Assembly: GCF_026210795.1 (NCBI RefSeq)
Contig: NC_089442.1
Span: 2,418,001-2,482,000 of the forward strand
DNA length: 64,000 bases
Source of the DNA: Rhizophagus irregularis
Taxonomy: Eukaryota; Glomeromycota; Glomeromycetes; Glomerales; Glomeraceae
Direction of reading: 5' to 3'
In this document: in pieces, positions 24,691 through 51,445 of the stretch
How the letters are laid out: every line of letters begins with the position of its first letter
Position numbering within the stretch: the first letter of the stretch is position 1
Position numbers and translations under genes: made by a program
The notes under the pieces: generated by a model
Seen by the model: only the letters and a program-made list of their open reading frames with translations
What the model was told of the DNA's origin: nothing
Database searches by the model: none

Positions 24691-25269
24691 TATTTTTTTA
24701 TTTTTTTTTTGGTTGCGAAGAGTATTAGACGTTAAAACTCTAAAAAGAAAAGGTGAGAAAAAATGAAGTTTTATTTAAAAAATTAAACTTTAAGAAACTT
24801 TCGCCATCATACTGATCGAATAGTCTATTTTATTATTAATATTATTAATCGAACGATTTGAACGCAAATCGACATCATGTAATATTTATAATTTAAGTGA
24901 TAGTTGATGATTTTAATAAATTTAATATAATTTAAGTATTATATCGACAATTAAACTCTAAAAAGATTAAACTCTAAAAAGAAAAAGGTTGGTGAGAAAA
25001 AATGAAGTTGTTTAAAAAATTAAACTTTAAGAAACTTTCGCCATCATACTGATCGATCGAATAGTCTATTTTATTATCAATATTATTAATCGAATGATTT
25101 ATATTTATAATTTAAGTGTAGATTGATGATTTTAATAAATTTAGTATTACATCGACGCAGTTGATGATTTTAATAAAATTTATTCTAATTTAAGTATTTT
25201 AAACGAATTATATTGATATTATTGATATATTATTAACAATTAACTTTATTTCGAAAAACGTTCACAAAA

Positions 25270-28200
25270 ATGACGAGAAAAAGATCATTATCAAGTATAC
25301 TCAATGAAGAATCAGATTCTAGACCTCATGCCATACCTTCATCACGTATACAAAGAACCAGATCAGTGTCAAATATAATTGACGAAGAATCTTCAAATCA
25401 ATCTTATCCTACATCATCACGTATTGGAAGGTTAGTTGCATGTAATTGTTCTGAATGTAATGGACGATTAGTAGATCCTCGTACGAAAACTATCCATGAA
25501 ATTAACCAAGATTCAGAGGATGATGATTCAGAAAGAACAGAAGTACATCTACCTGATGAAGCTGAATTGCCTAGTGACGAACCATACGAAAGTGCCTCAA
25601 TATCAGATGAACCACGAATGAGAGAATCAGAAGCTGAATTGCCTAGTAGACAACGATCAAGAAAATATGTTTGACCGGTTATAATTGCTGAATTAGGAGA
25701 TACAGTAGATGATAAATCTTCTGAATCTTCTGAATATACTACGGAGGAAGATGCAAATATCGATGATAGAAATGAATCATCCGATAATGAACCATCCAAT
25801 GATGACGAATACCACGAAATTTTTGAAGATTATTCATGTCCACCTTTCGAACCATTTCAAGATTCTGATACTGAACAATCAATAAATAATCGGTTCTTAT
25901 GGATATTATTATGGATCATGAGCTTCCGAACCAGGTTTAACTTACCAGAAACAGCTACAGAATCATTGATAAAATTCTTGAAGCTTGTTCTAACAGAAAT
26001 CGGTAGTCCTGATTTTGACACATTTCCTGACACTTTATATCTAGCAAGAAAAGCCCTTAATCTTGAAGACCGGTTTCATAGTTTTGTGGCGTGTTCCAAA
26101 TGCCACAAATTATACAACAAACAGGAAATAAAAAGTTTTCTCCAAAATGAGCAACCTGCCATCATGAAGTGTTGCCATGTCGAATTTCCTAATTCGACAA
26201 CTCGAAGATTAAGGTTGTGCCAAACACCTTTGGCACAGAAAACAACATTGTTAAATAACCAAATTTCAATCAAACCTGAATTATTATTTCCGTTTGTGAG
26301 TATTAAGCAGCAATTGGAAGCAATGTATCGTCAACCTAACTTTGAAAATTCTCTAAGGCATTGGATAAATCGTCCAACTTTCGATAATATCCTAACTGAT
26401 ATATACGATGGTGAAGTTTGGAAAACTTTTAAAGAAACGACAGATGAAAGTTCGAATAATTTTTTCTGATCTGATGTTGCTGATTCGCACCTCGGATTGA
26501 TTTTGAATTTGGATTGGTTTCAACCCTTCGACGGCACAATCCACAGCACCGGAGTAATATACGCTGCAATCGGTAACCTTCCGAGGGATGTCAGATTCAA
26601 GCGCAATAATATCTTGATTCTTGGCTTATTTCCGGCCCAGATGAAGTAAGTTTACATAAGATTAACCACTATCTGGCGCCAATCATTGATGAGTTGAAGT
26701 CACTTTGGGAAGGAGTGACATTAAATAAAACGTATGAATGTCAAGAAGGGAAAAGAATTCGCGCAGCTCTGATTCTTGTTTCATGTGACATACCGGCTGC
26801 AAGAAAAATTTGCGGACATATTTCCGCTTTGGTGTCGTGTCATAGATGCGAAAAGAAGGCGAATTATGAAAATCGGCAGCATAATTTCGCTGGGATAAAT
26901 GAAATGGACGAATGGTTTACTTGCCGTGATTCGGCTCAACATCGTCAAGATGCTATAGGATGGAGACGCTGTAATTCGGACGCAGCAAGAAAGCGATTTG
27001 TAAAGCAAACTGGAGTTAGATGGTCCGAATTATTGCGTCTACCATATTTCGATCCAATTCGGTTCATTACAATCGACCTGATGCACTGCTTGTTTCTGGG
27101 CATCGCAAAATGGATTGTAAGAAGACTTTGGATCGAAAATGGCGTATTAACAACACATATTTTGAAAACAGTTCAGAAAAAAATGGATGAATTTAAAGTT
27201 CCAGCTGACTTGGGTCGAATCCCAGGAAAAGTCGATTGTGGAGATGGGTTTTCAAATTTTACTGCGGATCAATGGCGAATATTTTTTACAATATATGCAA
27301 CGGTCTCTCTCGGGAACATCTTTCTGAGAATGACCGGAAGATTCTCGTGAATTTTGTGAGAATTTGTTCAATTTCAGTAAGTCGAATTGTAGAAGTCGAT
27401 TTCATGAGAGAGGCGCATCGAGGCTAATTAACCTAGTGAAGTTGATAGAAGAAAATTACGGTCGCGATAAAATCACACCGAATTTACATTTATCACTTCA
27501 CTTATGTGAATGCTCACTCGACTATGGACCTTTATATACATTCTGGTGTTTTTCCTTTGAGCGCATGAATGGCATGCTAGGTATAATATTTTAAATATTC
27601 TTGTTACTTTCTAAAATAATGCATTTTTATCAACTTTTGTTTAAAATAAATTTAGGCTCTTTTCCGAATAGCAGAAGGAAAATTGAACCGGAAATTATGC
27701 GCCGCCTGATGTTTGATAATCAAATCAGTAATATCATTAATTCCGGCGTGGAATCAAAGGGCCTAGATTTGATTAGTAATAGACCATCTGTTGGCTCTCT
27801 ATCAGAAGCCGACCAATTTTCTGCTGATGAAATGAGGCGATTTTGGTTGACTTCAAGAAACATTCATGAATCGACCACCACAGGAAAAGAAGCATTTCCG
27901 GGCGAAATGCTCAGACCAGTATTTAACGATATTGTAATGTCAAGTGATATGCTTGACTTAATAGTTGAATACTACATGGCGAAGCTACGAAACGATGGAA
28001 TTTCGGAAACCATTTGGAGAGGGTGCAGAAGATTCGATAATAGTTCAAGTTAAAATGAATCAATTTGGAAGGTGCCGAATTGGTTCTGAAATATTCGGCT
28101 CTTCGATATCATCACGTCATGTAAAAAGCTCATTTATCTTGGCAAAATTTATGACAGAAAGTGGTGATATCGATTGCTATCCTGGACAAGTCCAATACTT

Positions 28201-28490
28201 TTTTACACATGCCGTTAATTTGCCGGATGGGTTATCCGAACATAATCTAGCATTTATTCGCTGGTATAAACCTGCAGAATCATCAAATATTCGGTATCAT
28301 TTCAGAGTTAGAGATGACGAAATATGCAATGTTGAATTATGGGGTACCGAGTTTTACCTAGAATCCCGCGACTGTATTATTCCAGTTCATCATATTCTTG
28401 GCCGATTTATACCAACGAAATACCGAATTTCAGGCAGGGGAGAAGTTCAAACATCTATTTAGCGGTAAATCCAGTCAATAGAAAATTTCA
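25270..28490 (+). pseudogene. Plavaka-type transposase, multiply broken
   Basis: The gene starts at 25270 (MTRKRSLSSILNEES). It has an acidic Ser-rich N-terminal region, then a zinc-binding block (ACSKCHKLY...MKCCHVEFPN, about 26090-26190). The catalytic-type blocks follow: LNLDWFQPFDG, then RIRAALILVSCDIPAARK, CHRCEK, ITIDLMHCLFLGIAKW and LHLSLHLCECSLDYGP, and a C-terminal RDCIIPVHHILGRFIP domain. One intron (about 27580-27655) joins NGMLG to SFPNSRRK. Damage includes in-frame TGA stops at 25672 and 26467 and single-base shifts near 26635, 27313, 27430, 28000 and 28450. Neighbouring host genes have no such damage. Assignment to Plavaka rests on these blocks plus the CACTA ends. Confidence 0.85.
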
Positions 28491-28544
28491 TATTCGCTGA
28501 AATTAGTATCTTTTTCGAACTTTATTTTGATGAAATGACATATA

Positions 28545-28790
28545 ATTTCAAATAATACAAATATCGGAATTTATTAAATTTTAAAATAATACAAATTTCA
28601 AATAATACAAATATCGGAATTTATTAAATTTCAAAATATACAAATTTCAAATAATACAAATATCGGAATTTATTAAATTTCAAAATAATACAAATTTCAA
28701 ATAATACAAATATCGAAATTTATTAAATGTTAAAACAATACAATACAAATATCGGAATTATTAAATGTCAAATTTACATATAATATAATT
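28545..28790. repeat. Right subterminal tandem repeat of Plavaka
   Basis: About five irregular units of 45-55 bp have the form AATACAAATATCGGAATTTATTAAATTT. They lie between the transposase end and the right TIR, mirroring the repeated left end. A further direct duplication (GCACCGCAAATC..CTATGCCGAATG) lies at 28850-28960. Confidence 0.7.
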
Positions 28791-29049
28791 ATCGGAATGT
28801 CGAAATATTATAATGCGCAAACATCGGAATTTGAAACAAATATCGGAATTTGCACCGCAAATCGGCTATGCCGAATGTCATCTGATATGCAGCCGATTAT
28901 CGATCATATCCGAAATCGGAATTTTGCACCGCAAATCAGCTATGCCGAATGTCAGCCGATTATTGATCATATCCGAAATTTATCCGAAATTTGGCCAAAA
29001 TTTGGCTGATTTGCCTTACTTCCGATTTGCCTTATTTCGACTAGTGTGA

Positions 29050-30794: not shown

Positions 30795-31751
30795 CAGTCA
30801 ACTTCCTCTATAGTCACTCCCGTTATAGTCACATTCTACTATATAGTCACACCAGTTGAATGTTCAAAATACTTTATTATTAACATCTATTCTATATAGT
30901 CACAATCTATCTATAGTCACTATCATACCTATCCTCAAAAATCATATATTAAAAAGAACTGTTTATAATCACAGTTATATAAAGAATATATTAAATAACT
31001 TAGCATCTAATAATCGTACAAAGATGTACCATAGCTTGTTAGAATCGTCTCACTGAGACGAATCAAATGGTGGTAGTTTTATCCTTTTAAGATCACTGAA
31101 TGATGAGTTATTTAACAAAATGTTTAACATCAGCAATATAATATTTCTTGATTTACGTTTACTGCACCATTTAACATTTTGCTAAATTTCTTGGTACTTA
31201 GTGATTGTAAAAAGATGATTAATAGCTTGTTGGAATCGCCTTATTAAGACGAATCTAATGGTGGTAAGCTCATCTCTCTGTGATCAATATTGACGGAGTT
31301 ACTACTTAAAAACTATTTAATATTTTTTAATTTCAGAAATTGATTTAGTAATTGGATTTCGATGTATCTTATACCATTAGATTCGTCTTATCAAGACGAA
31401 TCAAATGGTAGTAAGATAGTCTCTCTAGGATCAATATTGGCAGAGTTATTACACAAAAACCATTAATATTTTTTAATTTTAGAAATTAATCTAGTGATTG
31501 GATTTCGATGTATTTTATACCATTAAAACTGTCTCATCAAGACGAATCGAATGGCGGTAAGATCTCTCTATGATTAATATTGGCAGAGTTACAATACAAT
31601 AAAGTTTTAAGTATAATTCTGGCTAAAATTATGTTAATTTTTGGCTGGAATTATAATATACTAATATAAGAAATTTTTTATATAGTTACATCTCTTTATA
31701 ATCATCAAATATGGACTATTCCAAATGTGTGACTATAAAGAGAGTTGACTG
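30795..31751. mobile_element. pogo/Tigger-like non-autonomous element P2 (uninterrupted)
   Basis: The ends are TA-CAGTCAACTTCCTCTATAG and the inverted AGAGAGTTGACTG-TA. It is collinear (inverted) with P1 at 17867-19885 but lacks the GC-rich and F4 inserts, so it shows both empty sites. Four hairpins of the type ATTCGTCTTATCAAGACGAAT are spaced by about 150 bp and each sits next to 'aatggtagtaag'. No transposase is encoded. Confidence 0.8.
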
Positions 31752-34059: not shown

Positions 34060-34690
34060 TGGTAACGGTAAGTCTATTTTTTTTTCTTTTATTATCTTAT
34101 GTATTTTTCTTTTATTAACTTAATTTTATTTTTTTTATTTTAGGTTTTGGTTGCTTGGCATTGAGCGGCAATGTTAGAAGGGAGGTTTTTTAATATATTA
34201 ATATAATAACATTTAATAATGTTCTTTTCTTTTCTCTTAGGAACGTTCTTTTCAGCGCATTTTCTGGACTTGAAGGTATAGTATTTCGAAGGGGAGGGGG
34301 GTATTCTTAATATAAGAACGTTTAATAACGCTCTTTTCTTTTTCTTTTTGTAGGAATGGACTTTTTGACGTGTTTCCTGAACTTGAAGGAACAGCAATTT
34401 GAAGTGGGAGGAAGGTGTTCTTGATATAAGAACGTTTAATAATGTTCTTTTTCTTTCCTTTTTGTAGGTTCCAAATTGGAGCCTTGGAATTGGAGTGACT
34501 GGGAGTTTTTAGTTTAAACTCTTTTTACTTAGATTTTTGAACTGGAACCTTAGAACTGGGCGGGTACTATATGTGGTAGTGGGAGATAAGAGATGGTGAA
34601 GAAAGTGCTTCAGAATGTTTTACTAATATTCATTATTTTTTTATCGTAGATTCCGTCGTGCTAGACTGAAAACGGAGTTTCAGACTAAAT
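34060..34690 (+). repeat. Exon-like tandem array 2
   Basis: Four T-rich acceptor-like ends (TTTTAG, CTCTTAG, TTTTTGTAG, TTTTTGTAG) precede short cores. Two cores are 35 nt each and both end in ACTTGAAG (34242-34276 and 34355-34389). Between cores lie inverted repeats of the type AAGAACGTTTAATAACGCTCTT. A donor-like GTATAG follows the first 35-nt core, and the second has lost its GT. The layout is that of the arrays at 37.5 and 46.9 kb, but the core sequence is different. Confidence 0.65.
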
Positions 34691-35030: not shown

Positions 35031-36539
35031 ATTATAATATAAACGAAATAATTTTTTTTTAATTTTTGTTTTTTTTTTGTCGTGTTAGTAGTAACTTAAA
35101 ACAAATTAATAAAAACCTTTAGCTTAGTAACGAGCAAATAATTTAAATGGGGTGGGTATGTATGTGTGAGAATAAGTCTAAAGAAACAACTGTTTCTTTC
35201 TTTTATTTTTTATAGAAAGTTAATACTATATATGCCAAAACAATGCCGAAACTCTAATAAAGTATTAGTATCAGTTATGCCGAAACTATGCCAAAATGCC
35301 GAAACAGTTTTGGCAGTTTTGGCAGTTTCGACACTATATAAGAAGTTTCGACTTTCAGCATTGGGCCAAATGAGTTTCGGCAGGCAACCTTAGTGTTAAC
35401 AAAGAAGTTGTTATTCCATGAGAGCAGTTGTTGTTAGGGATGGGGAAGTTCCACAAATGAGCGGCTCGAGCACGGTTCAGAACTGAGAACCGAGCTGGAA
35501 CCGAGAATCGGTTCCGGTTCTCTAGAACTCAGCCGCTTGACTCGAGCAGTTCAGTTCGGTTTATAATATTATAATAGTCATTTGTTAGAGTCGATTTATG
35601 GAGATCAGCGATCAAGTGACTATCAGATGCTATCGGATGATATTATTTTTCGGCAAATACGTCATAAAATAAATATTAAATCATAATTACGTCAATGATT
35701 TTTTTTTAAATTTTTTTAAATAATAAAAGGACTTTTATTCTAAAAACTATTTCAATTATTCGTAAATAAAAATTCTAAAATTGTGATGTATTAACAAAAT
35801 TAATCACCATCTCGAAGGTTAGATACTAAGAGGCAAAGTTTTATAATTCTTACGATTATTTCTTAAAACGTAAGAAATAATTCTTACGATTATTTCTTAA
35901 AAACCATTATACGAAAAAATTTACATCCCAATAATCAAAGAACTGAAAAATGGTTGAATTAAACGGGAAAGTTACAATAATTATAAATATACAAAATAGG
36001 AAATTTGAATTATTCCTTTATGTTGAAATAATAATTAATCGGTTAAGAAACTTGTATTTGATCCCGTACACTATGAAATTAACAAAATCGGCTTTATAAA
36101 TATGATGATTTTCCTAAAAAAGAATCTGTAACAGACTAATAGCTGATAAAATAAATACCGATAATCTAAAAAGATGACAAAAAAAAAATCCACTCTCATC
36201 TCAAAATGTCATTAAGTGACGAAGAATTTGTTCCCGACCAAGAAGATTTAGTGCTTGAAGATGAAGAGTTTGATGAGGAGTGGGAAGATGTTTTAGATCC
36301 TGATGATTCAGCTAGCCAGTTGTCACGTATGAATATAGGATCAGATACTGACATTTCGGATATAACAACTACGTCAGGAAGTGCCGTATGGCAATACTTT
36401 TATAAAAATCCGTCATATGCTCACTGGTCGAAATTAAAAAAATTGGACATATGGAAAATCGGCCAAAAATCAGACCAAAATTGACTAACATTATAAATCG
36501 GCACATCTGATTGATGCCAATCAGACAATTTGATAAAAA

Positions 36540-37240
36540 TTCAGCAAAAAATCATTATATTTGATTGACGGCTGATTGATGCTAGTTGAAATCAAAAAAA
36601 AATGGACAAATGGCAAATCAACCTAAAATTTGCCCAATATTCAAATATGCACTTCCGATTTATGGAAAATTGACAATTCAATAAATATTCAATAAAAATT
36701 CAATAAAAATTCAGCAAAAAATCATTATATTTGATTGACGGCTGATTGATGCTGGTTGAAATTAAAAAAAAAATGGACAAAATAGCAAATCAACCTAAAA
36801 TTTGCCCAATATTCAAATATGTACTTCAGATTTATGGAAAATTGACAATTCAATAAATATTCAATAAAAATTCAATAAAAATTCAGCAAAAAATCATTAT
36901 ATTTGATTGACGGCTGATTGATGCTGGTTGAAATTAAAAAAAAAATCTGACAAAATAGCAAATCAACCTAAAATTTACCCAATATTCAAATATGTACTTC
37001 AGATTTATGGAAAATTGACAATTCAATAAAAATTCAATAAAAATCCAACAAAAATTTGTTAAAAAATCATTATATTTGATTGACGGCTGATTGATATCAA
37101 AAAAAAATCTGACAAATTTGTAAATCAACCTAAAATTTACAATATTCAAATATGTACTTCAGATTTATGGAAAATTAACAATTCAATAAAAATTCAATAA
37201 AAATTTAGCAAAAAATTATCATATTTGATTAACAGCTTAA
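36540..37240. repeat. Left subterminal tandem repeats of the CACTA element
   Basis: Four to five units of about 150-175 bp each contain ATCATTATATTTGATTGACG, 'caacctaaaatttgccc' and 'cagatttatggaaaattgacaa'. The units decay toward the interior. Confidence 0.75.
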
Positions 37241-37479
37241 AATTTGCCTAATATTGTCTGATTTATGGCACTTTTATATCAAATTGCACTGGTCGAAATC
37301 AAAACTTTTGGGCATGGAAAAATTGTCTCAATTTCAGAAGTTATTCGAATAAACGATTTTTCAAAATCAACTTATGATGTACTAAGCCGCAGCCACAGTA
37401 AAATTAATCTGGCAATTAGTTGATCTATTACCGAATTTAGACTTTATTTAAACTAAAGTTTCGAAACTTTATCTTCATC

Positions 37480-39420
37480 TAACTTTATTCCTAAACAAAA
37501 CGGTTTTAAACGTTTTGGGATTTTTTTTTAATTTTTTATCGGAAATAATGTTCCAATTTTTATCATTTTTATTTTTTACGAAACGTTTTTTAACTTTTCA
37601 TTTAATATTTTCAATCGGAACATTAGTTAACGTTCTGATTTTATTAATTTTTTTTTGCAAAACTATTACTTTAAAAAACGTTTTCTAACATTTTTTTTTT
37701 ATACTTTTAAATAGGAAATCGGCTCCTACTTGGATACTGAATTCCAAAGGTAAGTTTCGAAGAATTTCTTCGAAACTTTATAAAAAAAAACGTTTTCTAA
37801 CGTTTTTTTTATACTTTTATATAGGAAATCGTCTCCTACTTGGATACCGAATTCCAAAGGTAAGTTTTGAAGAATTTCTTCGAAACTTTATAAAAAAAAA
37901 CGTTTTCTAACATTTTTTTTTATACTTTTATATAGGAAATCGGCTCCTACTTGGATACTGATTTCCAAAGGTAAGTTTCGAAACAAAAGTTTCGAAACTT
38001 TAAAAAACGTTTTTTAATATTACTAAAAACGTTTTTTTTTACTTTTGTATAGGAAATCGGCTCCAACGTGGACGCCGATATTCCAGATAAGTTTCGCATT
38101 TTCAAAACTTCTTTGAAAAAAACGTTTAACATTTTTTTTTTTAATATTATTGTAGGAATACCGTAAAGTTTCGAATTTTCAAAACTTTTTGACAAAAATT
38201 AATAAAAAACGTTTAATTTAACGTTTTTTATTATATTTTATTATTTTTTTTTGCAGGGAAATTGGCTCCAATATGGATACCAGAATCCCACATGCAAAGT
38301 TTCGATTTTTCGAAACTTTTTGAAAAAATTAATAAAAAACGTTTAATATAACGTTTTTTATTATATTTTATTAATATTTTTGCAGGGAAATCGGCTCCAA
38401 TATGGATACCGGAATCCCACATGCAAAGTTTCGATTTTTCGAAACTTTTTGAAAAAAATTAATAAAAAAACGTTTAAATTTAACGTTTTTTTATTATTTT
38501 TATTAATTTTTTTTGCAGGAAATCAGCTCCAAATTGGATATCGGAATCCTGCAAGTAGTTTCGATTTTCGAAACTTTTTGACGCAAATTAATAAAAAAAC
38601 GTTTAAATTAACGTTTTTTTATTATTTTTATTATTTTTTTTTTGCAGGAAATCGGCTCCAAATTGGATACCAGAATCCCGCAAGTAAAGTTTCAAAGTTT
38701 CGAAACTTTACGAAACTTAATAAAAAAACGTTTAAATTTAACGTTTTTTTATTATTTTTATTAATTTTTTTTGCAGGAAATCAGCTCCAAATTGGATACC
38801 GAAATCCCACAAGTAAAGTTTCGATTTTCGAAACTTTTTGACGCAAATTAATAAAAAAAACGTTTAATTTAACATTTTTTTTATTATTTTTTATTATTTT
38901 TTTTTGCAGGAAATCGACTCCAAATTGGATACCGGAATCCCGCAAGTAAAGTTTCGAAGTTTTGAAACTTTATGAAACTTAATAAAAAAACGTTTAAATT
39001 AACGTTTTTTTATTAGATTTTATTATTTTTTTTGCAGGGAAATCGGCTCCAAATTGTACCAGAATCCCGCAGGTAAAGTTTCGTCAAAACTTTTTGACGC
39101 AAATTAATAAAAAAAACGTTTAATTTAACATTTTTTTTATTATTTTTTATTATTTTTTTTTGCAGGAAATCAGCTCCAAATTGTACCGGAATCCCGCAGG
39201 TAAAGTTTTGATTTTTCGAAACTTTTTGACGAAACTTAATAAAAATGTTTAATTTAACATTTTTTATTATATTTTATTAATTTTTTTGTATGGAAATTGG
39301 CTTCGATTTGCCATCCTACAGGTAACGTTTTGATTTTTGAAACTTGAAACTTAAAAAAAAACGTTATTTTAATGTTTTTTCTTTTTTTTTTGTAGGAAAA
39401 TCATCTCCAATTTGTAGAAA
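37480..39420 (+). repeat. Exon-like tandem array 3 (about 15 units)
   Basis: The units are 105-130 bp. The core begins GAAATCGGCTCC and ends near ATTCCAAAG, ATTCCAG or ATCCCGCAA, with lengths mostly 34-36 nt. It is preceded by 10-20 T plus ATAG or GCAG and followed by GTAAGT or GTAAAG. Each spacer has two inverted repeats: AAGTTTCGA..TCGAAACTT next to the donor, then AAAACGTTxxxAACGTTTT. Cores start near 37715, 37825, 37938, 38053, 38258, 38386, 38519, 38648, 38777, 38910, 39037 and 39166. Some units have lost the donor GT (38093, GATAAG) or show GC (38296, 38424). Core lengths do not keep one frame, so a normal coding function is unproven. Confidence 0.75.
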
Positions 39421-39529
39421 CAAATGGGAATTAAGGAATTTAACGTATACCGGATTTGTTAGAAAGTTGGGATGATTTTTGGTGAAATTGTTTTATATGT
39501 ATATGTAATATTTTAAATTTCAGAATAAA

Positions 39530-39800
39530 ATTTACTGTAATTTGCGATACAATTCAGAATACAAATCAGAATAAATTTTTTACTACAAATCGGAATAAAT
39601 TTTACTACAAATCAGAATAAATTTTACTACAAATCGGAATAAATTTTACTACAATTCGGAATAAATTTTACTACAAATCAGAATAAATTTTACTACAAAT
39701 TGGAATAAATTTTACTACAAATCAGAATAAATTTTACTACAATTTGGAATAAATTTTACTACAATTCAGAAAATTTTGTCACAAATTTACCATAATTCAG
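39530..39800. repeat. Right subterminal 22-bp tandem repeat
   Basis: About ten units of AATCAGAATAAATTTTACTA (with 'tacaa') lie between the array and the right terminus of the CACTA element. Confidence 0.75.
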
Positions 39801-42371
39801 AATAAATTCACTGCAATTCGGTAAATTTATGAATAATATTTTTTAAACAATTCGGATTAAAAATACTAAGCAATTCAGATACAATTCAGACATTCTGATC
39901 GGCATCGATCGGCCTGCCAATCAGAACTTTGCCTAAATTAATAAATCGGCCATATTTATCACCAAATTCAGCCTAAAATCGGACATCCGATTTCTAGCCG
40001 ATTTGGACTATTTCGACCAGTGGCTCCAGGCTATAATATTTGCAAAATATGTTCCAATAGATACAGAATAACAACAAGTGTTAGTACTTTGCGAAAGCAT
40101 CTTAATAAACATCGTTTAAGTGTACCTAAGAAAAAACATGTCTTAATTGAAAAAAGGGATCCTTTTGATGAAGAACAACAACAAATTCACGATAAATACC
40201 TTACTGATTGGTTGATCTGTGACCTTCAGCCATTCACAGTTGTTGAAAACCATTATTTTAAAATATTCATCAATTTTTTCTGCCCGCGATATATTATTCC
40301 CGATAGACATAAGGCAAAAGGTAATTATCTTAAAAAATTTTTTTAAAACTCATAAAATAACATCTAATTTTCTTTCTAATTAAATAGAATTAATAATTGC
40401 TACATTTACAAACCGAAGAGATGCAGTTATCAATGAACTCCATAAAATTGAAAAAAAATTCGCGTTAACGGCAGATATGTGGACGTCTACCATAAACCGG
40501 GAGGCATTTTTAGGACTCACTATCCATTATGTGGATTCCAACTGGAAACTCCAGAATTTTCTTCTCGATATCATCCCTTTTACAGTTAGCCATTCCGGAG
40601 CAAATATTGCAAGAGAAATAATGCGAATTTTGGAGGAGTTCAATATTTCCAATAAAATCATCGCGCTCACGACAGATAATGAATCTGCAATGATAGTTTG
40701 TGGGAGAGAGATTACTTTAGACATGGATGACGAATTTTCATCCATGATTTTTTCTCACTACCGATGCGCTGCACACGTCCTAAACTTAGGTGTAAAAGAG
40801 GGACTAAAATTAGTTAACGATTCCATTAAAAAGTAATGAATAGCATTAAAAATTCGACCCGTCTATGTGATAGTCTTCGTCTCTTATGCAACTTAAAAGA
40901 AATGAAGTACCTTAAACCTATTATTGACGTAGAGACGTGCTGGAACTCTACTTACTATATGCTGAGGCGTTTGGAGGTACTTGAACCAGCACTAAATTTA
41001 CTAGTAGCTGATAATCGATCAATTCATGCCTTTTACCCAAATGATGACGATTGGATTGCTATCAAAGTAAATAATTTAGAAAATTTTAATTATTATTTTA
41101 AAAAAAAAGAATGTAACAATTTTTTTTAAAAAAATACTAATATTACCTATTTTAAATAGGATACGCTCTTGCTTCTTGAACCCCTAGAAAAAGCTACCAA
41201 ATATTTGTCAGCATCATCCTATCCAACGATGGGTGAGACTCGTTTTATTTTTTCAGGAATCCAGGCACATCTAATGAAAAATATGGAAAATGAGACCTTT
41301 ACGCAACGCGAAATGGCAACTTTGATACACCAGAAAATAAGACAATATTGGATGATTATGGATAAATCTTCAATTACTTCTGCAATTCTGGACCCTCAAA
41401 ATAAACTTACAATATTCTTGGATGAGTCAAGAGTAAGTGCTCTCCAACATATTCAAGACACATACAATATATATAAAAGACGGTCCTCATCACCTATGAA
41501 TGCAAAACAATATGCTCCTAATAGTACACGCCAGTATTTTGCACGATTGCAACAAATAAATGAAGAAATTGATCAAACCAATGACGAAATTTCTCCTCCA
41601 GTAATTCCAGCAATAGAATTTGAAGAACTGAATCGGTATCTTCAACTACCGATTGATGAGGGGACCGATCCTCTCATATGGTGGCAAGCGCATTCTAGCG
41701 AATTCCCGGTATTATGTAACATTGCGCGAGATTTTCTTTGTATTCAAGCAACAAGTGTTGCGTCAGAACAAGCCTTTTCGGTAGCTGGAAACACAATCAC
41801 TAAAACCCAGAATCGTTTATTGCCAGAAACGGCAAGGGCTTGTTTGTGTATGAAAAGTTGGATTAATAATAAGCTAGTCAAATAATAATTTTTTTTTCTT
41901 AGCCAGTTAGCCTAGCTGTTATTCAGTTTTTTTTTACTTTACTTTACAATGCCACCAACTCGAATTTTGTTATTTTTCACTGATATTGTAAAAAAAAACA
42001 TTTTAATAAATATACGAAAGTTGGTCAAATATATTAATATTGAATTTATTTTTTAGTAAAATTTTATAAAATTATCAAAAAAAAATTTTATTTTCAGTTG
42101 CGTTTATTTAAATAGTAAATTTTAAGTGTGCAACTTTAAAAAACCAATTAAATTGGCACTATTTTAAGGCGAATACATCTATTACTAAATTAGTAATGAA
42201 TGTAGATGATTGGTTCATCATTAATTATAAATCAAATTTAACCGACTCGAACCGACTCGAACTGACTCAAACCGACTAGAGCCGTTCCATAAAACTGAGC
42301 TCGGAGCCGGCTCCGCCGCTCTGCAGAACCGGAACGGAACCGATGGAACCGTCCCCATCCCTAGTTGTTGT

Positions 42372-42667
42372 AGGACCCCGGATATCTCCAAAACAGGTCA
42401 TAAGTCACACTTTTGGCAGATTGGCCCATTTTTTAGGGGCTCAAAAAATCGTTTTTTGTAAATATCTCGGCATCCAGTGGTCCAATTTTGATGAACTTTT
42501 TTTTAAATTGTAGAGCTAAATGAGGGCTACAAAATAAAAAAAGTTTATTAAAATTGAATTACTGGATGCTGAGATATTTACAAAAAACGATTTTTTGAGT
42601 TTCAGCAAAAAGGAATGTTTTTGGCCAAAAGTCCATTATGACCTTTATATTAGATATCCGGGGTTCT
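42372..42667. mobile_element. Fold-back MITE family F1, copy 2 (8-bp TSD)
   Basis: The ends are AGGACCCCGGATATCT and AGATATCCGGGGTTCT. It is flanked by GTTGTTGT on both sides (42364-42371 and 42668-42675). The left copy is at the same time the right target duplication of the hAT element, so two elements used the same 8-bp site back to back. Confidence 0.85.
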
Positions 42668-42675
42668 GTTGTTGT

Positions 42676-42966
42676 GTGTCTTCTTGACTTAATTGAATAT
42701 GTTTTTCTTATAATAAAAAATTTTTGATTATTTGATTACATTTACATACAGTGTTGTCAACTACAATTGTCCACTTATTACTGAGCTGTTGACAATATAT
42801 CATATGATCATCATCTTTATTTTCTTCAAGACAAAACCTACATTTTACATCTCCATATAAGTCATATCTTCTTTCCTTCATGATTTCTAAAGTTGGGACT
42901 TGGGAGCAAACAATTTAAAAGTTTCAAGTGTTTGATGAATCTGTCATTTGTTAGTGATGTTGTACA
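42676..42966 (-). pseudogene. LINE polyprotein middle segment with zinc-knuckle
   Basis: The minus-strand frame reads TLEIMKERRYDLYG, then CRFCLEENKDDDHMIYC, a CCHC motif of the kind found near the C-terminus of non-LTR polyproteins. It ends at the F1/hAT insertion site. One single-base shift lies near 42895. The upstream part joins the RNase H segment across the CACTA MITE. Confidence 0.7.
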
Positions 42967-42969
42967 GTT

Positions 42970-43245
42970 CACTGGTAAAAAAATGGTACTATCTACACAT
43001 ATATACACATATCTTACATATATCGGTACTCAAAATGTAGAAAATCATACACAAATAATACACATATCATATACATATCGGGTACTTATATATATAGTAT
43101 ACCTATCAGGTACCTGATATATGTATGATATATATATTAGTACCCGATATGTGTATGATATGTGTATTATTTTGTATGATTTTCTACATATTGAGTACCC
43201 AATATGTGTAAGATATGTGTAGGATAAATCATTTTTTTACCAGTG
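42970..43245. mobile_element. CACTA-type MITE (3-bp TSD)
   Basis: The ends are CACTGGTAAAAAAATG and ATTTTTTTACCAGTG, with GTT on both sides (42967-42969 and 43246-43248). The two halves are inverted copies rich in 'acacatatc' and 'gatatgtgt', so the element folds back. A half copy starts the window. Confidence 0.85.
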
Positions 43246-43930
43246 GTTGTGTTCTGTATTTTTTTTAAACAGTGTCCAAGTAACTTCTTCTTCTATTGTG
43301 TTAGTTGTATCTGAAAATACTGATCTATGTGTGCGGTTGAGAGACCATGCAGCACCTAATGTAGTTTCACACAATTTATCTATAAATTTTCTGATATTTC
43401 TGTCAACTCTTTTGCTATTTCAGTAAATATCGTATATTAAATCCTTTTGTTGTGAATTTTTAACATTGATGCAAGTTGGTTTTTTTGTGTTGTTTTTTGC
43501 CATCCTATCTGTTTCTTCATTACCCTTGACTTCTGAGTGACCTTTAACTTTTACCAACTTTATTTCTAGCTGTTTTCTATCAATAAGGTTAATTATACTA
43601 CTTACTATACTATTATTGTTACATTTGCATCATGTTTGAGTTTTGTTTTTACTATTTGTTAGATTTGTTCTTGTGTAATTAATGCTATCTATGGTAGCTT
43701 GTGAGTTTGTAATAATATTTGCTTTCTGTCCTGTCTATAAAACTAATATGGCTGACAGAATGGCTCCTAGTTCTGCACATGTGAATGAAGGCCAATCTGT
43801 GATTGAACTGTTGCATTCTAATATTACTTCATCTTTATTATTCAATATCATCCAACCTGTGCTCATGAGTTTTGTAAATGTGTTAGAGCTATTGTTAAAA
43901 TGATTTGTTAGTGAGCCATTAAATAAAATA
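43246..43930 (-). pseudogene. LINE RNase H domain segment
   Basis: The minus strand reads LFNGSLTN, TGWMILNNKDEVILE, FTCAELGAILSAIL, ANIITNSQATIDSI and KVKGHSEVKGNEETDRMAKNN. This order of blocks is characteristic of RNase H domains attached to non-LTR reverse transcriptases (GSL, E-LGA, NSQA, GHS-KGNE-DRMAK). The first catalytic Asp appears as Asn in LFNGSL. In-frame stops are present (about 43735 and 43635). Nothing recognisable precedes it beyond 43930, so the element is truncated at its 5' side. Confidence 0.75.
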
Positions 43931-44733
43931 TTTTTAATAAATATATAAACAAATTGTTTTTATCAATTAATAAATATTCAATAAATACAGTATATTTATA
44001 AATTACGTAATTAGTGATGATTTATTATTAGTAAATATTAAAATTATATATGATTTTAAAGATCTGGTCAAAATCGCAATAGGTCAAAATCTCAAATTCT
44101 AATGCTGGTCAAAAATATCACATGATTCTGCATAACTCTGCATAATGCGGCTAATTGTTATGATTTTAACCCATTCGTGATTTTAACCCGTTATGATTTA
44201 GACCTATAACCATGATTTTAATTATTGATCTTAATAAATTTTTATATTTTTTAAGTAATTATAATATAAAATAGTCATAAAATAAATTGTTTAGTAATGT
44301 AAAAATCTTAATATTATAATAAAAATTTGCTTAATAGAATTGAAAATAGTTTGCTTATTAATCTTAATAAATTTTAAAATTTTTATCAACTTATATAAGG
44401 TTATTTATCTAAACTTTTCTGAATTTTATAATTAGTTTCTTTAAGATTTTACTATAGTTTATTATAAATTTTAGCAGTTTTAGCATTTATAATAAATTTT
44501 GTCAAATTTTACTTTTCTTCAAGATTTTACCATCTTTTTAATAAGATTTTTATATAGTTTTGACAAAGTTTATTATTTCAATATTTCATCAACTTGCCAA
44601 AACTCTCTAATTTTTCCAGTAACCTTAAATCAGGATTCAGGAATATATATACAGGGATAGGGATTTAACATAACCAATAAAATGAATTAAAAAAAGAAAA
44701 AATAAAGAAAGGAATAATAACCTTGTTAAATGT
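43931..44733. other. AT-rich spacer with a degraded F4 copy
   Basis: 44397-44631 aligns with F4 MITEs (AAGGTTATTTATCTAAAC ... AGTAACCTTAA) with many substitutions toward A/T. 44045-44230 repeats 'tggtcaaaat' and 'gattttaaccc'. No gene is present. Confidence 0.5.
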
Positions 44734-44748
44734 AATACTTCCTATTAC

Positions 44749-45479
44749 AACAAGAGCCGTTGTGATAATTTTGATACTAATAATACTCTAATTAATTTCA
44801 TAAAGTCTTCAAATAACTTATTACCTACAGTTGACAATCTCAGAAAACGTAACGACATTTATGATGATGTACCGTGTCCAGCTTCCATGATAGACGCTAG
44901 ACTTGAACCATTTAGTAATATGTACTTGGATTGGAACAAGCTTTCCTCACTGCTGAAAAAGAAATGATAGATAAGATTCGGAAATATCTCAAACGTTTCA
45001 AATGCAAAAAATCTGTCACGATCAATGAACTCTACATCAGCATATTTGAATATAGAGACCCTGAACTGAAACAAAGAAACAGACAGGAATTACTACGTGG
45101 TTTGATTTCACACACAATCGTAAAGAAGCTTAGAAAACTCACATCAAAAAGAATTGCTTCACTCCTGTCTTTAAAGATCATTAAATACTTTCATGAAGCT
45201 TTTAGAAAACATGTTTAGAAACCACGATGTAAAATAATGAACGAACTAAAAGAATCGTTGCATATTACACATCAGGACAAGTGTAAGACCTCAAGGACAC
45301 ATAAGGAGGACGCAGAAACTCAACGCGATCACTATCGACATACTCTAACTGCATTTCGTGAACAAAAGGCATCAAAATATAATGAAGGCTTGCGTTGATG
45401 CAAAGATCATCTATATCGTTTGGTAACAACTGGTTTATTGCCTCCCTGGAAGTCTAGAAAAATTACCGTTCAATATAAA

Positions 45480-45511
<32 letters not shown>

Positions 45512-45780
45512 TTATGATAAAGTTGCAGCGTAGTGGGTCCCGTGATCACCAGACATTGAAGATAGGGCCTTTATGGCTAAGATGACCCATTACTAAACGA
45601 AGTCTACCTACGGAGTCAAACGATCACTCGACAGTGCACACGTGGGGTACTACTGGTATGACGAGTGGTTTGTAGTTTAATTATATTAGAGTAGTTATTA
45701 GGGAATTTTACTTTGTATATATTTTCTTTATTTTTTTACTTTAATAAAACTGCAAATGCGCTGCGGAAAAAAAAAAAAAA
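44749..45780 (+). mobile_element. Retroposed cDNA insertion with poly-A tail and 15-bp TSD
   Basis: AATACTTCCTATTAC is present exactly at 44734-44748 and again at 45779-45793, directly after a 14-base poly-A run (45767-45780). This is the product expected of target-primed reverse transcription. The insert contains a frame at 44931-45218 (KEMIDKIRKYLKRFKCKKSVT...) and shifted pieces upstream (DNLRKRNDIYDDVPCPASMIDARLEP) and downstream. It then has an (AAT)n run and a GC-richer 3' segment (45520-45670). I do not recognise the protein. It may be a 5'-truncated LINE or a processed pseudogene. Confidence 0.75.
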
Positions 45781-45793
45781 TACTTCCTATTAC

Positions 45794-46217
45794 GAATTTA
45801 CCTTCCTCCTGTATATTCCCATAATTAAAAACAGCCTTTGTTGAAAGCTCTGTAATCATTAATAATTATTTGGGAATAGGCAGTAACCGCTGAAGCTAGT
45901 GTCACATTTGTTCTTAAAGTAAGTCCTTTAATATATTCTTTAATTAGATTATTATCTCCACCTTTCCATTCATTGGTGGCTCATTTAAAGAATAGTATTT
46001 AATTTGAATATAAGGTACACAGATGCGTAACCATCATAGTGGAATTAGACAGAGTAAAGTTTTGATTTGCGTACAATTTTAGAATTTTTTATCTATAGTT
46101 AGGTCATCAAGATTGCATATTTTTTATCAAAATTTTTATATGTAAAAATTAGTTTGCATATTTTTGGCCTAAATTTGGCTAATCTTATATACAGTCAACT
46201 CTCTATATATAAATACC
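45794..46217. other. Spacer with a solitary pogo-type terminus
   Basis: At 46195 TACAGTCAACTCTCTATATA matches the P1/P2 terminus but stops after about 25 bases where the F1 copy begins. No partner end is seen. No gene is present. Confidence 0.45.
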
Positions 46218-46514
46218 AGGACCCCGGATATCTAATATAAAGGTCATAATGGACTTTTGGCCAAAAACACCCCTTTTTGCTGAAACTCAAAAAATCGTTT
46301 TTTGTAAATATCTCAGCATCCAGTAATTCAATTTTAATGAACTTTTTTTTATTTTGTAGCCCTCATTTAGCTCTACAATTTAAAAAAAAGTTCATCAAAA
46401 TTGGACCACTGGATGCCGAGATATTTACAAAAAACGATTTTTTGAGCCCCTGAAAAATGGGCCAATCTGCCGAAAGTGTGACTTATGACCTGTTTTGGAG
46501 ATATCCGGGGTCCT
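46218..46514. mobile_element. Fold-back MITE family F1, copy 3 (no TSD)
   Basis: Full-length, in the opposite orientation to the other copies, with the same AGGACCCCGG ends. The flanks TAAATACC and GTTAAGAG do not match, so one side was probably rearranged after insertion. Confidence 0.8.
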
Positions 46515-46859
46515 GTTAAGAGCTTTCAGCATAATTTTTGCCGATTGGTCATGTGATTCATCACATTTTTTGACCAATGGCAAAAATTGTTAAAATCAAT
46601 CACAAATCGATTGTTAAACGGATATTTGTTCAGTCTTTTGGTAAAAAATCAACTTATACCAATTGTTATATGAAAAATTGTTCCTTTAAGATCATTCAGT
46701 GAAATTATACCGATTGGTCATATAAATCAACACAATTTTGCCAAATTTGCCAAACGGTAAAAATCAATAACTAATTGGCAATAATTCGGCAAATCAGTTG
46801 ATAAATAACTGAAAATCATCAGATGATCCAGATCGACATTTTACAGGTCTTTTTTAAAC

Positions 46860-48920
46860 AAACTTTTTTAAACTTTTTGAACCTTTCGCTTCCTTTCCTC
46901 CTTCTCTTTGTCCTTTTCCTTCTCTTTCTTACACCTTAGTTCTTTATGTAAATGTACACATTGAATTCGGTAACTTTTAATTAAATCAAAAAAGTTTCAA
47001 AATTTTCTTTAAAAAAACGTTTTTTAACATTAAAAAAATGTTTCTTTTTATACACTGTGAAGAAAATCGGTTCTGGCATGGATACCGTTTCTCTAAGTGA
47101 AATTTTGAAGGATTTTCAAAACTTTCTTAAAAAAAAAACGTTTTATAACTAAAAAACGTTTTTTTAAATATTTTTTGTTTAGGGAATTAGTTTCGGTGTG
47201 GATACTGTTTCCCTAGGTAAAGTTTCAAAAAATTTCGAAACTTTCTTAAAAAAAAACATTTTTTAATTAAAAAACGTTTCTTTTTATTTTTTTTTTTGCA
47301 AAGAAAATCGGTTCTGGCGTGGATACTAATATTCTAGGTAAGTTTCAAAACTCTTTCGAAACTTTCTTTTAAAAAAAAATGTTTTAACGTAAAAAAACAT
47401 TTTTTTTATTTTTTTTTGCAGAAAATCGGCTTCGGCATGAATACCGATGTTCCAGATAAGTTTCAAAAAAAATTTGAAACTTTATAAAAAAAATATTAAA
47501 AACATTTTTTTTTTCATTTTTGTATAGGAAATCGGCTTCAACGTGGACGCCGATATTCCAGGTAAGTTTTAAAACTAAAGTTTCGAAACTTTTTTAATAA
47601 AACGTTTTTAATGAAATGTTTTTTTTATATTTAATTATAGGGATATCGGTTTCAGCGTGAATACCGAATCCCAAAGATAAGTTTCAAAAATTTTCGAAAC
47701 TTTAATATAAAAAACGTTAATTTTTAACGTTTTTTTTTATTTTGTTGTAGGGATATCAGTTCTAGCGTGGATACTGTTTTCCTAGATGAAGTTTTGATAG
47801 ATTTTCGAAACTTACTTATTAAAAAAATCGTTTTTTAGCTAAAAAATGATTTTTTTTTATATTTTTTTATAGGAAATCGGTTCCGATGTGAATACCGTTT
47901 CCCCAGGTAAAAAAGTTTTAAAGAATTTCGAAACTTTATTAAAAAAATGTTTTTTAATATAAAAAATGTTATTTTTATTTTTTTTTTGTAGAAATTCAGT
48001 TCTGGTATAGATGCCGATATTCCAGGTAAATAAAGTTTCAAAAGATTTCAAAACTTTATTAAAAAAAACATTTTTTAATAACAAAAAATGATTTTTTTTA
48101 TTTATTTTTTTTGCAGGAATTCGGTTCCGGCATGGATACCATTTCCCTAGGTAAAAAAAGTTTCAAATATCGAAACTTTATTAAAAAAACGTTTTTTAAT
48201 ATAAAAAACGTTATTTATTGTTTTTTTTTGTAGGAATTCAGTTCTGGTATAGATGCCAATATTCCAGGTAAATAAAGTTTTGAAAGATTTCAAAACTTTA
48301 TTAAAAAAAAACGGTTTTTAATATAAAAAATGTTATTTTTTTATTTTTTTTTGTAGGAATTCAGTTCTGGTATGAATACCGATATTCCAGATAAATAAAG
48401 TTTCAAAAGATTTCGAAACTTTATTAAAAAAACGTTTTTAATAACAAAAAATGATTTTTTTTATTTATTTTTTTTGCAGAAATTCAGTTCCTGTATAGGT
48501 ACTGTTTCCCAAGTAAAGTTTTGAAAAATTTCAAAACTTTTTTTTATTATATTTTTTTTGTAGGAAATCAGTTCCAGCGTGGATACTGTTTCCCAGGTAA
48601 AGTTTTGAAAAATTTTTGAAACTTTCTTTAAAAAAAAAAGTTTTTATACTAAAAAACTTTTTTTTATTATATTTTTTTGTAGGAAATCAGTTCCAGTGTG
48701 GATACCGATATTCCAGGTAAAGTTTTAAAAATTTTTGAAACTTATTTTTTTATTAAAAAATCGGTATACTAACCGTTTCTTTATTTTTTACTTAGGTTTT
48801 CTTTGGATTTTTGTTGAATGAGCGGTAAGTTTATTTTCGAAACTAAATTTTTTTTTTAAAGGATGGTTTACTAACCGTTTTTTATTTTTTTTGTTTTGTA
48901 GGTTTCCGGATCTTTGTGAA
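46860..48920 (+). repeat. Exon-like tandem array 4 (about 16 units)
   Basis: The units are 105-125 bp with core GAAATCGGTTCCGGCGTGGA and ends such as ATATTCCAG or GTTTCCCAG. The core length is mostly 33-35 nt. It is flanked by TTTTTTGTAG/GCAG and GTAAG/GTAAAG. The spacers carry the GTTTCAAAxATTTCGAAAC and AAACGTTTTT..AAAAAACGTT inverted repeats. One unit (47529-47562) is nearly identical to a unit of array 3 (38053-38086), so the two arrays are one family. Several donors are mutated to GATAAG or GATGAAG. Confidence 0.75.
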
Positions 48921-48927
48921 TTAGACT

Positions 48928-49226
48928 AGGACCCCGGATATCTCCAAAACAGGTCATAAGTCACACTTTCGGCAGATTGGCCCATTTTTCGGGGGAGAAC
49001 AAAAAATCGTTTTTTGTAAATATCTCGGCATCCAGTGGTCCAATTTTGATGAACTTTTTTTTAAATTGTAGAGCTAAATGAGGGCTACAAAATAAAAAAA
49101 AAGTTCATTAAAATTGAATTACTGGATGCTGAGATATTTACAAAAAACGATTTTTTGAGTTTCAGCAAAAAGGGTGTTTTTGGCCAAAAGTCCATTATGA
49201 CCTTTATATTAGATATCCGGGGTCCT
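48928..49226. mobile_element. Fold-back MITE family F1, copy 4 (perfect 8-bp TSD)
   Basis: The ends AGGACCCCGG and CCGGGGTCCT are flanked by ATTAGACT at 48920-48927 and 49227-49234. It is inserted just after the last unit of array 4. Confidence 0.88.
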
Positions 49227-49662
49227 ATTAGACTTTTATTGGGTCAGTAAGGATGGTGGTAAGGATGGTGGTGGATAGTGGATAATGTAGCGGGTGCGTG
49301 TAGTGAATGGTGGAATGGTGGACGACGGATAGTAGATAGATTTAATATGTAATTTTAATATGTAAAGCAAATTAATAGAATTTAATTAATAAATTGTTAT
49401 TACAAATTAAAATTAGCTAAATATACTAAATATACAAAATCGGTAATAATTAAGTTGATTATTAACAATCGTCAAATTTGGTTTTACCGATTTGTTACTA
49501 ATTTTACTGATCGATTTGTTGACAAGTGGCAGGTGTTATGGTGCAAATCGCCTATAAAATTAGTTGCCGATTTTTTTAGTACTGATCGGCTAAGGTCAGA
49601 CTAAATTTCGTCTAACAATCGGCAATTTAAAATTTTGCCAAAATGGACTATTCTGACCAGTG

Positions 49663-51445
49663 CCTTACATAGTAAATTATATATAAACTGAATGAATTAC
49701 GGCATCCTAAATTATAATTATGACATCCCAAAATAATTTGGGCAGCATGTATACCTTATAGTAAAATTTTAAAGAAACTAATTGTAAAATTTTGGAGAAG
49801 TTTAGATAAGTAACCTTAACAAAAATGTAATCTATTGGAATGATAATCTTTCAAATTTTTATGAATTAAACTTCTAAAAAAAAAGAATATATTAAGTTAC
49901 ATATATATAATATAATACTTATGAGTTATATAATATGAAGAATTTAAATGATTTCAATTTTTTATAGTTTAATTTATATAAAACTATATTTTAATTTGAT
50001 TGTTTGTTTAATATAATATTTTATTTTCAGTTTCTTTAAATTTAAATATAATATTATAAATTTTTCAAAGTTTTTTACTTTAAATCACTGGAGGTGATTA
50101 TCACTATTATTAAATTTTACCAGTACTTATATTTTTTTAATATTGGTTAATTATCATAATTTCAGTCACTGGTGATTTAGAAACATTCTTTTATTATATT
50201 TATTTTATTTAATCTGTTTAATAAACACTTCTTTTCTTTTTAAACTTTTCAAAAAATCTGGATATTGAATAATTAAATTGAAACAGCTTGATATAATTAT
50301 ATAGATAATCATTAAAATTTCCTTTTTTAAATTTTTTAATTAATATGATTAGGGAGCTTACATATATTACGTAATTATTAAAGGGTGGAGGGGAATAACT
50401 AAAATCTTACATTGCACTTAATAAAATTATATGATTTATAAATATTATAATTTGATTGGTTATTAAATCTGACAAGGAGAGGGAGGGGAGTAAGTTTATA
50501 TTAAACAGAATATTACGTAATATGTGTAATTCCCCTTATATAAAGACTAATATGAAATTTTAAATATTATTGTGTATTAAAATTCAAGTATGATTATTAT
50601 ATATAATTTTAAGTAATTAATAAAAATAAAGAATTTGCTACTTTTATTTAAATAATATAATATAAATATATAATTATAATTAATATCTGTAAAGATATAG
50701 ATTTTAAAAATATATAATATGTAAATTTGGTGAAAAAATATTAAATAACTAGAAAATCTGTAAATTATTATAATAGTAAATCAAATCTATAAAGCTTTTT
50801 AATTTCTTTATTTTATTATTTTATATAAAAAATATTACAATTTGAATTCTGATTGTAAGAAGATTTTTTAAATTTAATTATAGAGTTTTATAAGGTTAAG
50901 AAAAAACATTAAAAGGATTTGATTTGTATAGACAAATTGTTAACTAACTGAATAACATATGGAATTTTTTAAAATAATGAATGGTGTAAAATTTAAAAAA
51001 TTAGATTTTTATTTATTACTTTTGATTAATAAATTCTCACATATTTTACAAAAAAGTAATATATATAATATTATAATAAAAAATAAAATACTTAACACAA
51101 CTTATCAGTCCAGTTATTTTAGGTATATTCTGATCTTTAGAGAGTTAGAAAAATCTGTTCAGAATTCATTTAGAACAGATTTTTCTAACTGTTTTTCTTG
51201 CATTAATAGTATAAGTTTTTAGTTTCATTGTTAAAGGAGCCAATTTTGTAAGAACCAAGGGTTTTGGCACCAACCATTGAATTTAAGAATATATTTGATG
51301 AAGATCATGTGTTAATCAACATAGTCAAGCAAAAAGATCATAGTGTCACATTGTATATCACTAAGGTCATATGATCATGATCGGTGTAATAAATTTAATA
51401 AATGATTCTCGATAATAAAACTGTGTAATAAATTTCATTCTTTCC
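49663..51445. other. AT-rich intergenic region with small repeats
   Basis: 49757-49819 is the right part of an F4 copy. 50085-50185 is a small palindromic repeat related to 7890-8005. 50351-50536 is a MITE-like segment with ends AGGGAGCTTACATATATTAC and the inverted GTAATATGTGTAATTCCCCT. The open frame at 50959-51222 has AT-driven composition and contains a hairpin, so I do not call it a gene. Confidence 0.5.
51143..51190. repeat. Perfect 18-bp inverted repeat (hairpin)
   Basis: The arms AGTTAGAAAAATCTGTTC and its exact complement are separated by 12 bases containing GAATTC. It lies about 250 bp upstream of the Cue1-like gene. It could be a small MITE core or a hairpin in a transcript. Confidence 0.7.

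Follow-up and report, generated by a model that had tools for sequence, protein, structure and literature searches.

A tandem array of micro-exon-like cores and intron-like spacers lies inside a transposon of the arbuscular mycorrhizal fungus Rhizophagus irregularis in the window, that is, the whole stretch of 64,000 nucleotides that was analysed. The transposon is a non-autonomous element of the CACTA/EnSpm type, its array gains and loses units, and arrays of the same design, with hairpin stems that covary between array types, recur over the genome. We favour, with modest confidence and reasoning from the sequence, the reading that these are transcribed and at least ancestrally spliced non-coding micro-exon arrays carried by transposons; from the features described below we infer that the arrays would be transcribed and spliced, that the AATAAA-rich end would be used and that the second hairpin of each spacer (hairpin 2) would affect how efficiently splicing proceeds. 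Both the transposon setting and the persistence of the hairpins while the cores change across array types are additions to an earlier sequence-only reading of this region, which had called it array 3.

That reading had placed about 15 units in the range 37480–39420. A real tandem exon-intron-like array (array A in Table 1) was confirmed there, and it was also detected by Tandem Repeats Finder; its limits lie slightly inside that range, with the first acceptor at 37715 and the last at 39396, and the count comes to 14 complete units and a fifteenth acceptor. The units are 101–133 nt long, with intron-like spacers of about 69–97 nt. From 5′ to 3′, the spacers show a donor adjoining or inside a first hairpin (hairpin 1), then hairpin 2 with (C/T)TAAC in its 3′ arm, a motif that we take to be of the fungal branch-point type, then a T-tract and AG. 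The splice-like signals were found as they had been described: AG stands before the core in 13 of the 14 units, with AT in its place at 39292, and is also present at the terminal acceptor; GT follows the core in 11. The loss of GT from some units was also seen, the three donors without it being one AT and two GC. The core lengths are 35, 35, 35, 34, 7, 37, 37, 36, 36, 36, 36, 35, 34 and about 29–33 nt; the proposed length of 34–36 nt is therefore right for 10 of the 14 and 34–37 nt covers 12 of them, but one core has only 7 nt.

Table 1. Positions of the arrays, the transposons and their parts in the window.
Feature	Position	Strand	Remarks
Array-like units, TTGCCAGACGAAAGTTACGAACCGGACTTT-type core, AACGTT-type hairpin	524–1060	+	
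CACTA element with tnp2 match (26610–27350, +)	22206–29046	.	TIR CACTAGTCGAAAT, nearly the same as in element A; TSD TGA
Short array, further core type, AACGTT-type hairpin	34060–34480	+	
Target-site duplication GCT, left copy	36419–36421	.	
Element A, non-autonomous CACTA/EnSpm-type transposon with array	36422–40022	+	Copies share ends; TIR CACTGGTCGAAAT/ATTTCGACCAGTG; 3-bp TSD in 9/9 copies
Left terminal inverted repeat CACTGGTCGAAAT	36422–36434	+	
Subterminal 172-bp tandem repeats, 4 copies	36533–37205	+	Region similar in tnp2-encoding L022, L023
Internal extra copy of TIR sequence	37287–37299	+	
Array A	37715–39396	+	14 exon-intron-like units and terminal acceptor; cores mostly 34–37 nt; 2 hairpins per spacer
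22-bp subterminal repeats, 9.5 copies	39560–39771	+	
Right terminal inverted repeat of element A	40010–40022	-	
Target-site duplication GCT, right copy	40023–40025	.	
Element B, older related element	46513–49662	+	Left end abuts short inverted-repeat insertion; right TIR CACTGGTCAGAAT at 49650–49662
Array B, homologous exon-intron-like units in element B	46986–48902	+	

Element A is 3.6 kb long and has the terminal inverted repeat (TIR) CACTGGTCGAAAT, which begins with CACTG, at both ends without a mismatch. Its boundaries at 36422 and 40022 are common to the window copy and to the eight copies fetched from the genome, and a 3-bp target-site duplication (TSD) flanks all nine. The 1,140-bp core of the array gave at least 352 match pieces in the genome (40 of 158 candidates scored), and the 421-bp segment directly before the array at least 19 full-length matches at 96% identity or more (40 of 96 candidates scored). 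Two longer elements, L022 (8.3 kb) and L023 (8.4 kb), have the same ends as element A; the left and right terminal regions are common to all three, at 82–93% identity in the best blocks, and both longer elements contain Transposase_21 (tnp2; Pfam, E 4.6e-10 and 2.8e-11). Since the ends of element A match those of tnp2-encoding elements of the same genome, and since CACTG-type TIRs, a 3-bp TSD, subterminal repeats and an end-sharing tnp2 relative are all present, it is a non-autonomous CACTA/EnSpm-type transposon, which exists in many recent copies and holds the array as internal cargo.

In L023 the tnp2 match is on the strand opposite to that of the array, and frames resembling the other gene of the CACTA element of the window are on the array's strand, so that the array sits about where a second gene would be. 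An origin of the array from this second gene was considered and rejected, since neither L022 nor L023 shows similarity to the array or the hairpin-2 pattern. The right end of element A (39396–40022) contains 12 AATAAA on the plus strand and none on the minus strand; the same bias towards the array's strand was found at the right ends of L023 (12 against 0) and L022 (9 against 0), and it is thus not special to array-bearing elements. As to the wider surroundings, the CACTA population of this genome is very large; CACTRGTCRAAAT has 699 matches genome-wide against 15 for its reversed control, and at least 150 tnp2 matches were counted (150 of 497 candidates scored). The 6.8-kb CACTA element at 22206–29046 has tnp2-related sequence in several frames and tandem repeats at 24231–24592. 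To the right of element A, at 40384–41885, lies hAT transposase sequence, with Dimer_Tnp_hAT and hAT-like_RNase-H identified by Pfam at 41160–41885; element A may have inserted into the adjoining hAT copy in the sense direction. These hits and a frame of 190 codons over the empty site, against 129 for the control mean, point that way but are suggestive only.

The sequence-only reading had proposed, among possible roles, that the splice-like signals act as a decoy, by which the element is spliced out of host transcripts. It has been mentioned for plants that CACTA ends sometimes mimic splice sites (PMC4219821), and the longest frame without a stop that spans the empty site exceeded the control mean in five of the nine copies, the window copy having 190 codons against 129. 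On the other hand, the frame was shorter than the control mean in the other four, the array sits in the middle of the element, and the patterns tried found no strong donor in element A before the first acceptor (36422–37715) or after the last one (39396). A first exon is therefore missing upstream of 37715, the RNA would retain about 0.6 kb, and removal of the 1.3 kb upstream would need a donor supplied by the host. These observations do not support the decoy model, which we regard as highly improbable.

The nine copies of element A have 11, 14, 14, 14, 15, 16, 16, 16 and 17 units and, since they differ, arrays grow and shrink; the suggestion of ongoing unit amplification was therefore borne out. 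The 422 reciprocal-best unit pairs (133 units, nine copies) differ by 2.3%, and in these young copies substitutions per compared site reached 0.117 at CpG columns and 0.010 elsewhere, so that CpG-column substitutions are about 12-fold commoner among the units of the window copy and of the fetched copies L005–L012. Transitions account for 691 of the 715 CpG-column changes. The drift of bases among copies is mostly CpG decay, which is consistent with the decay of methylated cytosines; R. irregularis transposons are described as carrying CpG methylation, lower in old and short ones (PMC8647823). The changes in young copies amounted to 0 of 441 at AG, 14 of 784 at the donor GT and 149 of 11,362 at non-CpG core columns; the selection at AG and GT that had been read from the drift is not supported, as the donor GT changes no less than the non-CpG core. 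Recent copies are too young, and too strongly marked by CpG decay, for the conservation of AG and GT among them to be informative on selection, and we discarded this test. The variable unit number and the prevalence of CpG decay would also suit a selfish, functionless minisatellite, which would have arisen by slippage from an old fragment with an intron and would pass on its splice signals and palindromes through copying only. CACTA elements are, moreover, known to hold internal tandem repeats.

An older sister family (family B) gave matches at about 40 places or more, many of them partial and mostly 70–92% identical (40 of 320 candidates scored). Five of the seven fetched loci have ends of the CACTGGTC type that face each other and are flanked by a 3-bp TSD, and the same end test gave no such pair in L013 and L014. 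Among 127 units from eight loci the A of the acceptor was kept in 127 and the G in 118. At non-CpG columns the family consensus reached 0.936 in the hairpin-1 arms against 0.790 in the cores (Mann-Whitney p 5e-4), the arm columns having been named only after the alignment was seen; the hairpin loop reached 0.63, and the donor columns averaged 0.70, below the core, in an alignment where cores differ in length and donors are perhaps partly misaligned. GT(A/G) was present in 65 and absent in 59 of the 124 scored units, at least seven of the 59 having GTT. By these column values, acceptor and stem are kept better than donor and core. Taking the young copies and family B together, an excess of conservation over the rest of the unit is seen at AG and fails at GT. 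The many donors lost from this older family again suit a minisatellite, but that family B keeps its acceptor and hairpin arms while its cores change speaks against copying only. A separate element of about 300 bp with inverted ends GACCCCGGATATC/GATATCCGGGGTC occurs at 46220–46512 and 48930–49224, both at or in element B, and the stretch 1696–2001 near the start of the window resembles it (90%).

A second array, with unrelated cores but an identical order of the parts, is found in each of the CACTA elements L020 and L021; in the array types examined the parts stand in the same order on one strand. A pattern made of hairpin 2, spacer, T-tract and AG matched 644 + 729 = 1,373 times in the genome and 7 + 18 = 25 times as a reversed control. 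On contig C1, 94 hairpin-2 sites form 38 clusters, with 77 of the 94 in clusters of two or more, and of the 56 spacings within clusters 26 measure 81–132 nt and 10 measure 226–252 nt. Intact CACTRGTCRAAAT CACTA ends that face each other enclose only three of the 38 clusters. No CACTA end pair with target duplication was found in L024, L025, L027, L028 or L029, and L026 has a single weak pair, mismatched at 3 of 13 positions; the idea that arrays always lie inside CACTA ends was thus abandoned. The transposon link could be established for some arrays only, and either the array superfamily is wider than the CACTA elements or their ends have decayed. In fact, L024 and the CACTA element L021 have 1.25 kb of array in common at 88% identity, so that arrays occur in more than one context. 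In L026 and L028 the donors are mostly GTAAGTTTC and mostly intact. In L024 (247–1323), frames of a DDE_1 transposase lie directly upstream of the exon-intron-like array, and ARAGORN found no tRNA-like remnant beside the L024 and L025 arrays. Two other tandem arrays of the window, at 18027–18349 and 31234–31599, have units of about 147 bp that look mutually reverse-complementary by eye.

The two hairpins described for each spacer, one of the TTTCGAAA type followed by one of the AACGTT type, were upheld by folding, since array A introns fold into both: two introns gave z of −4.9 and −5.5 against dinucleotide shuffles, and eight gave a mean of −4.2. A loose AACGTT-type inverted-repeat pattern matched all 14 units (0.05 matches per unit after shuffling), although in the first three units the reported match begins in an arm of hairpin 1, and a stricter pattern requiring the T-tract and AG matched 11 of 14 spacers. 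A fuzzy TTTCGAAA-type pattern for hairpin 1 also matched 14 of 14 units, yet it occurs 0.93 times per shuffled unit and, as shuffles match as well, it is uninformative. Hairpin 2 of array A encloses the branch-point-like CTAAC or TTAAC. Rfam 15 gave no match at the gathering score in the region 36000–50000 of the window. Over 13 array segments, which include three of the eight family B loci, 143 introns gave a mean z of −2.8, with 62% below −2; the segment means go from −1.0 (W34) to −4.9 (L028), and folding is weak (mean z −1.0 to −1.5) in five of the 13 (W1, W34, L025, L029 and B_L013). In L020, two introns folded without their exons gave −0.2 and −1.8, hairpin 1 extending there into the exon. 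As a host control, 11 predicted introns in five TCP-1 gene loci gave a mean z of +0.45 and none below −2.

Covariation was then scored in these 13 segments at stem positions that the choice of hairpins left free, the choice having required the core arms and not the scored inner or flanking positions. Hairpin 1 was scored in those 37 of 58 two-armed donors whose arms are 9 nt or more apart. Of its inner three positions 106 of 111 were paired, where permutation gave a mean of 78 (maximum 88 in 2,000); with duplicates removed the count was 82 of 87 against 58 (maximum 68). For hairpin 2, 74 distinct hairpins were scored at four flanking positions each, of which 226 of 296 were paired against 143 (maximum 169), and, when each distinct flank pair was counted once, 19 of 36 were fully complementary against a mean of 5.4 (maximum 13 in 5,000). 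Since the units of one array are related, the permutation counts overstate independence, which the count of each flank pair once reduces and does not remove. The stems of both hairpins thus covary between array types whose cores are unrelated. Together with the common one-strand order of parts, this speaks against inheritance of the palindromes through copying only, and we consider the functionless minisatellite unlikely.

Hairpin 2 was recognised by pattern in 71 of 128 array introns from nine segments and not in the other 57; its motif reads CTAAC 49 times and TTAAC 22 times. The presumed branch-point A is paired in 65 of the 71, a pairing partly expected from their having been chosen for hairpin 2, against three of nine among those predicted host introns for which a branch point could be proposed. 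As this A is mostly paired, hairpin 2 tends to hide the branch point. The donor G is paired in 37 of the 71 array introns and in 8 of the 11 predicted host introns and, being paired no more than in the host, it leaves hiding of the donor by hairpin 1 unsupported. If hidden branch points stalled the spliceosome, the array could instead be a source of hairpin or double-stranded RNA that feeds or triggers small-RNA silencing, which would agree with the frequent pairing of the branch-point A and with CpG decay in the copies. It is in Cryptococcus, however, and not in R. irregularis that stalled splicing is linked to small RNAs, and the stems are short, about 8–16 bp in the folds. Even if R. irregularis transposons are described as producing small RNAs (PMC8647823), we find such a source rather improbable.

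It had also been stated that the core lengths preserve no frame, and this was confirmed: the cores that were called measure 21–53 nt, fall into all three residue classes modulo 3 and differ by 1–2 nt between homologous units. They are richer in G+C (0.45). In 82 cores, 73 stop triplets were counted against 119 ± 7 in shuffles, a partial tally, since the strict exon caller, run on 17 segments, gave no cores from W1, W34 and B_L014 and only six of the 14 of array A. The antisense strand is just as poor in stop triplets (67), so that the deficit in sense looks compositional, and stop depletion was dropped as a sign of coding. The sole stop-free frame of 150 codons or more in element A runs through the array and matched no Pfam family at E 0.001; four frames of L020 and L021 fell far below the cut-off, with a best E of 0.33. 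Stop counts, core lengths and Pfam searches thus gave no coding signal in the array. These results bear on a further explanation, by which the arrays would be decayed or fast-evolving protein-coding micro-exon genes captured by CACTA elements, the repeats having once encoded peptides of 11–14 residues. Some 42-nt core types are indeed readable in one frame by eye (L021, L024 and L025), and the higher G+C of the cores and their having fewer stops than shuffles speak for it, but the antisense control, the core lengths and the Pfam results argue against it, and such a coding relic seems to us a doubtful origin.

To return to the reading that we favour, of a spliced non-coding array, the array would be transcribed from left to right, now or recently, as an intron-rich untranslated RNA with its 3′ end at the subterminal repeats, which are rich in AATAAA. 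Its spacers would be removable by the spliceosome, with an efficiency set by hairpin 2 through the pairing of the presumed branch-point A. Units would multiply by slippage or unequal exchange, and arrays might spread between elements through transposition and capture. As to why a transposon keeps such cargo, we would guess that a partly spliced RNA rich in introns disguises the element as a host gene, or tunes its silencing. A bolder version, which we put forward tentatively, is that of a new class of mobile, spliced and non-coding micro-exon arrays, with over a thousand branch-point hairpins per genome, that may pass between CACTA elements and other loci; the donor and branch-point hairpins would be maintained through compensatory change while the exons are free, and the branch-point hairpin might serve as a brake or switch of splicing.

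If the arrays are spliced, they would amount to a natural intron library on a genome scale, with a conserved splicing architecture and freely varying exons. They would also be a case of transposon cargo under selection for RNA processing and not for protein, and would provide a route for the multiplication of introns and micro-exons. Even if unspliced today, they offer a covariation-rich set on the effect that hairpins at branch points have on fungal splicing. Some of the many unclassified repeats of R. irregularis, in which two thirds of the transposable elements are given as unclassified (PMC11075540), may also be explained by such arrays.

Among known systems, non-autonomous members of CACTA/EnSpm (CMC) resemble element A in their CACTG TIRs, 3-bp TSD, subterminal repeats and ends shared with tnp2 elements; unlike them, element A has in its interior a tandem array of intron-bearing micro-exon-like units. 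A search of open-licence papers found no CACTA element described with such cargo and, for that PMC literature, the remark that no described family has this design stood. Proliferating fungal introns and stwintrons in the Hypoxylaceae are reported with inverted repeats or predicted stable structures (PMC8469720), a likeness that introner-like elements and stwintrons have with our arrays, unevenly between array types. Introner-like elements are presented as near-identical introns in unrelated genes (PMC4457414), whereas here exon and intron multiply jointly and in tandem, and 77 of the 94 sites on C1 are clustered instead of being single near-identical introns. In stwintron-related introns, moreover, the branch-point A is said to be frequently unpaired (PMC8469720), unlike the 65 of 71 paired in the array introns chosen for hairpin 2.

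The array also recalls micro-exon genes and tandem-repeat effector genes. In micro-exon genes (MEGs) the exons keep the reading frame, and the first one carries a signal peptide. Those of Schistosoma are described as series of very short exons in one gene, encoding secreted proteins, with long introns of up to 5 kb (PMC10526429). In contrast, the array introns measure about 90 nt and no frame-keeping coding was found, the core lengths keeping no frame and the stop deficit being the same in antisense. The SP7-like effectors, of the same fungus, share with the arrays imperfect tandem repeats and dispersed paralogues, which are reported as conserved; their genes have a signal peptide, hydrophilic protein repeats and a conserved intron before the first repeat (PMC11333574), whereas each array repeat has its own intron-like spacer and gave no coding signal. 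CACTA elements, proliferating inverted-repeat fungal introns and micro-exon genes are thus already known, and their combination is new to the open-licence literature searched. Since related arrays elsewhere retain both hairpins in many spacers, they may represent an as yet unrecognised kind of putatively spliced, probably non-coding transposon cargo.
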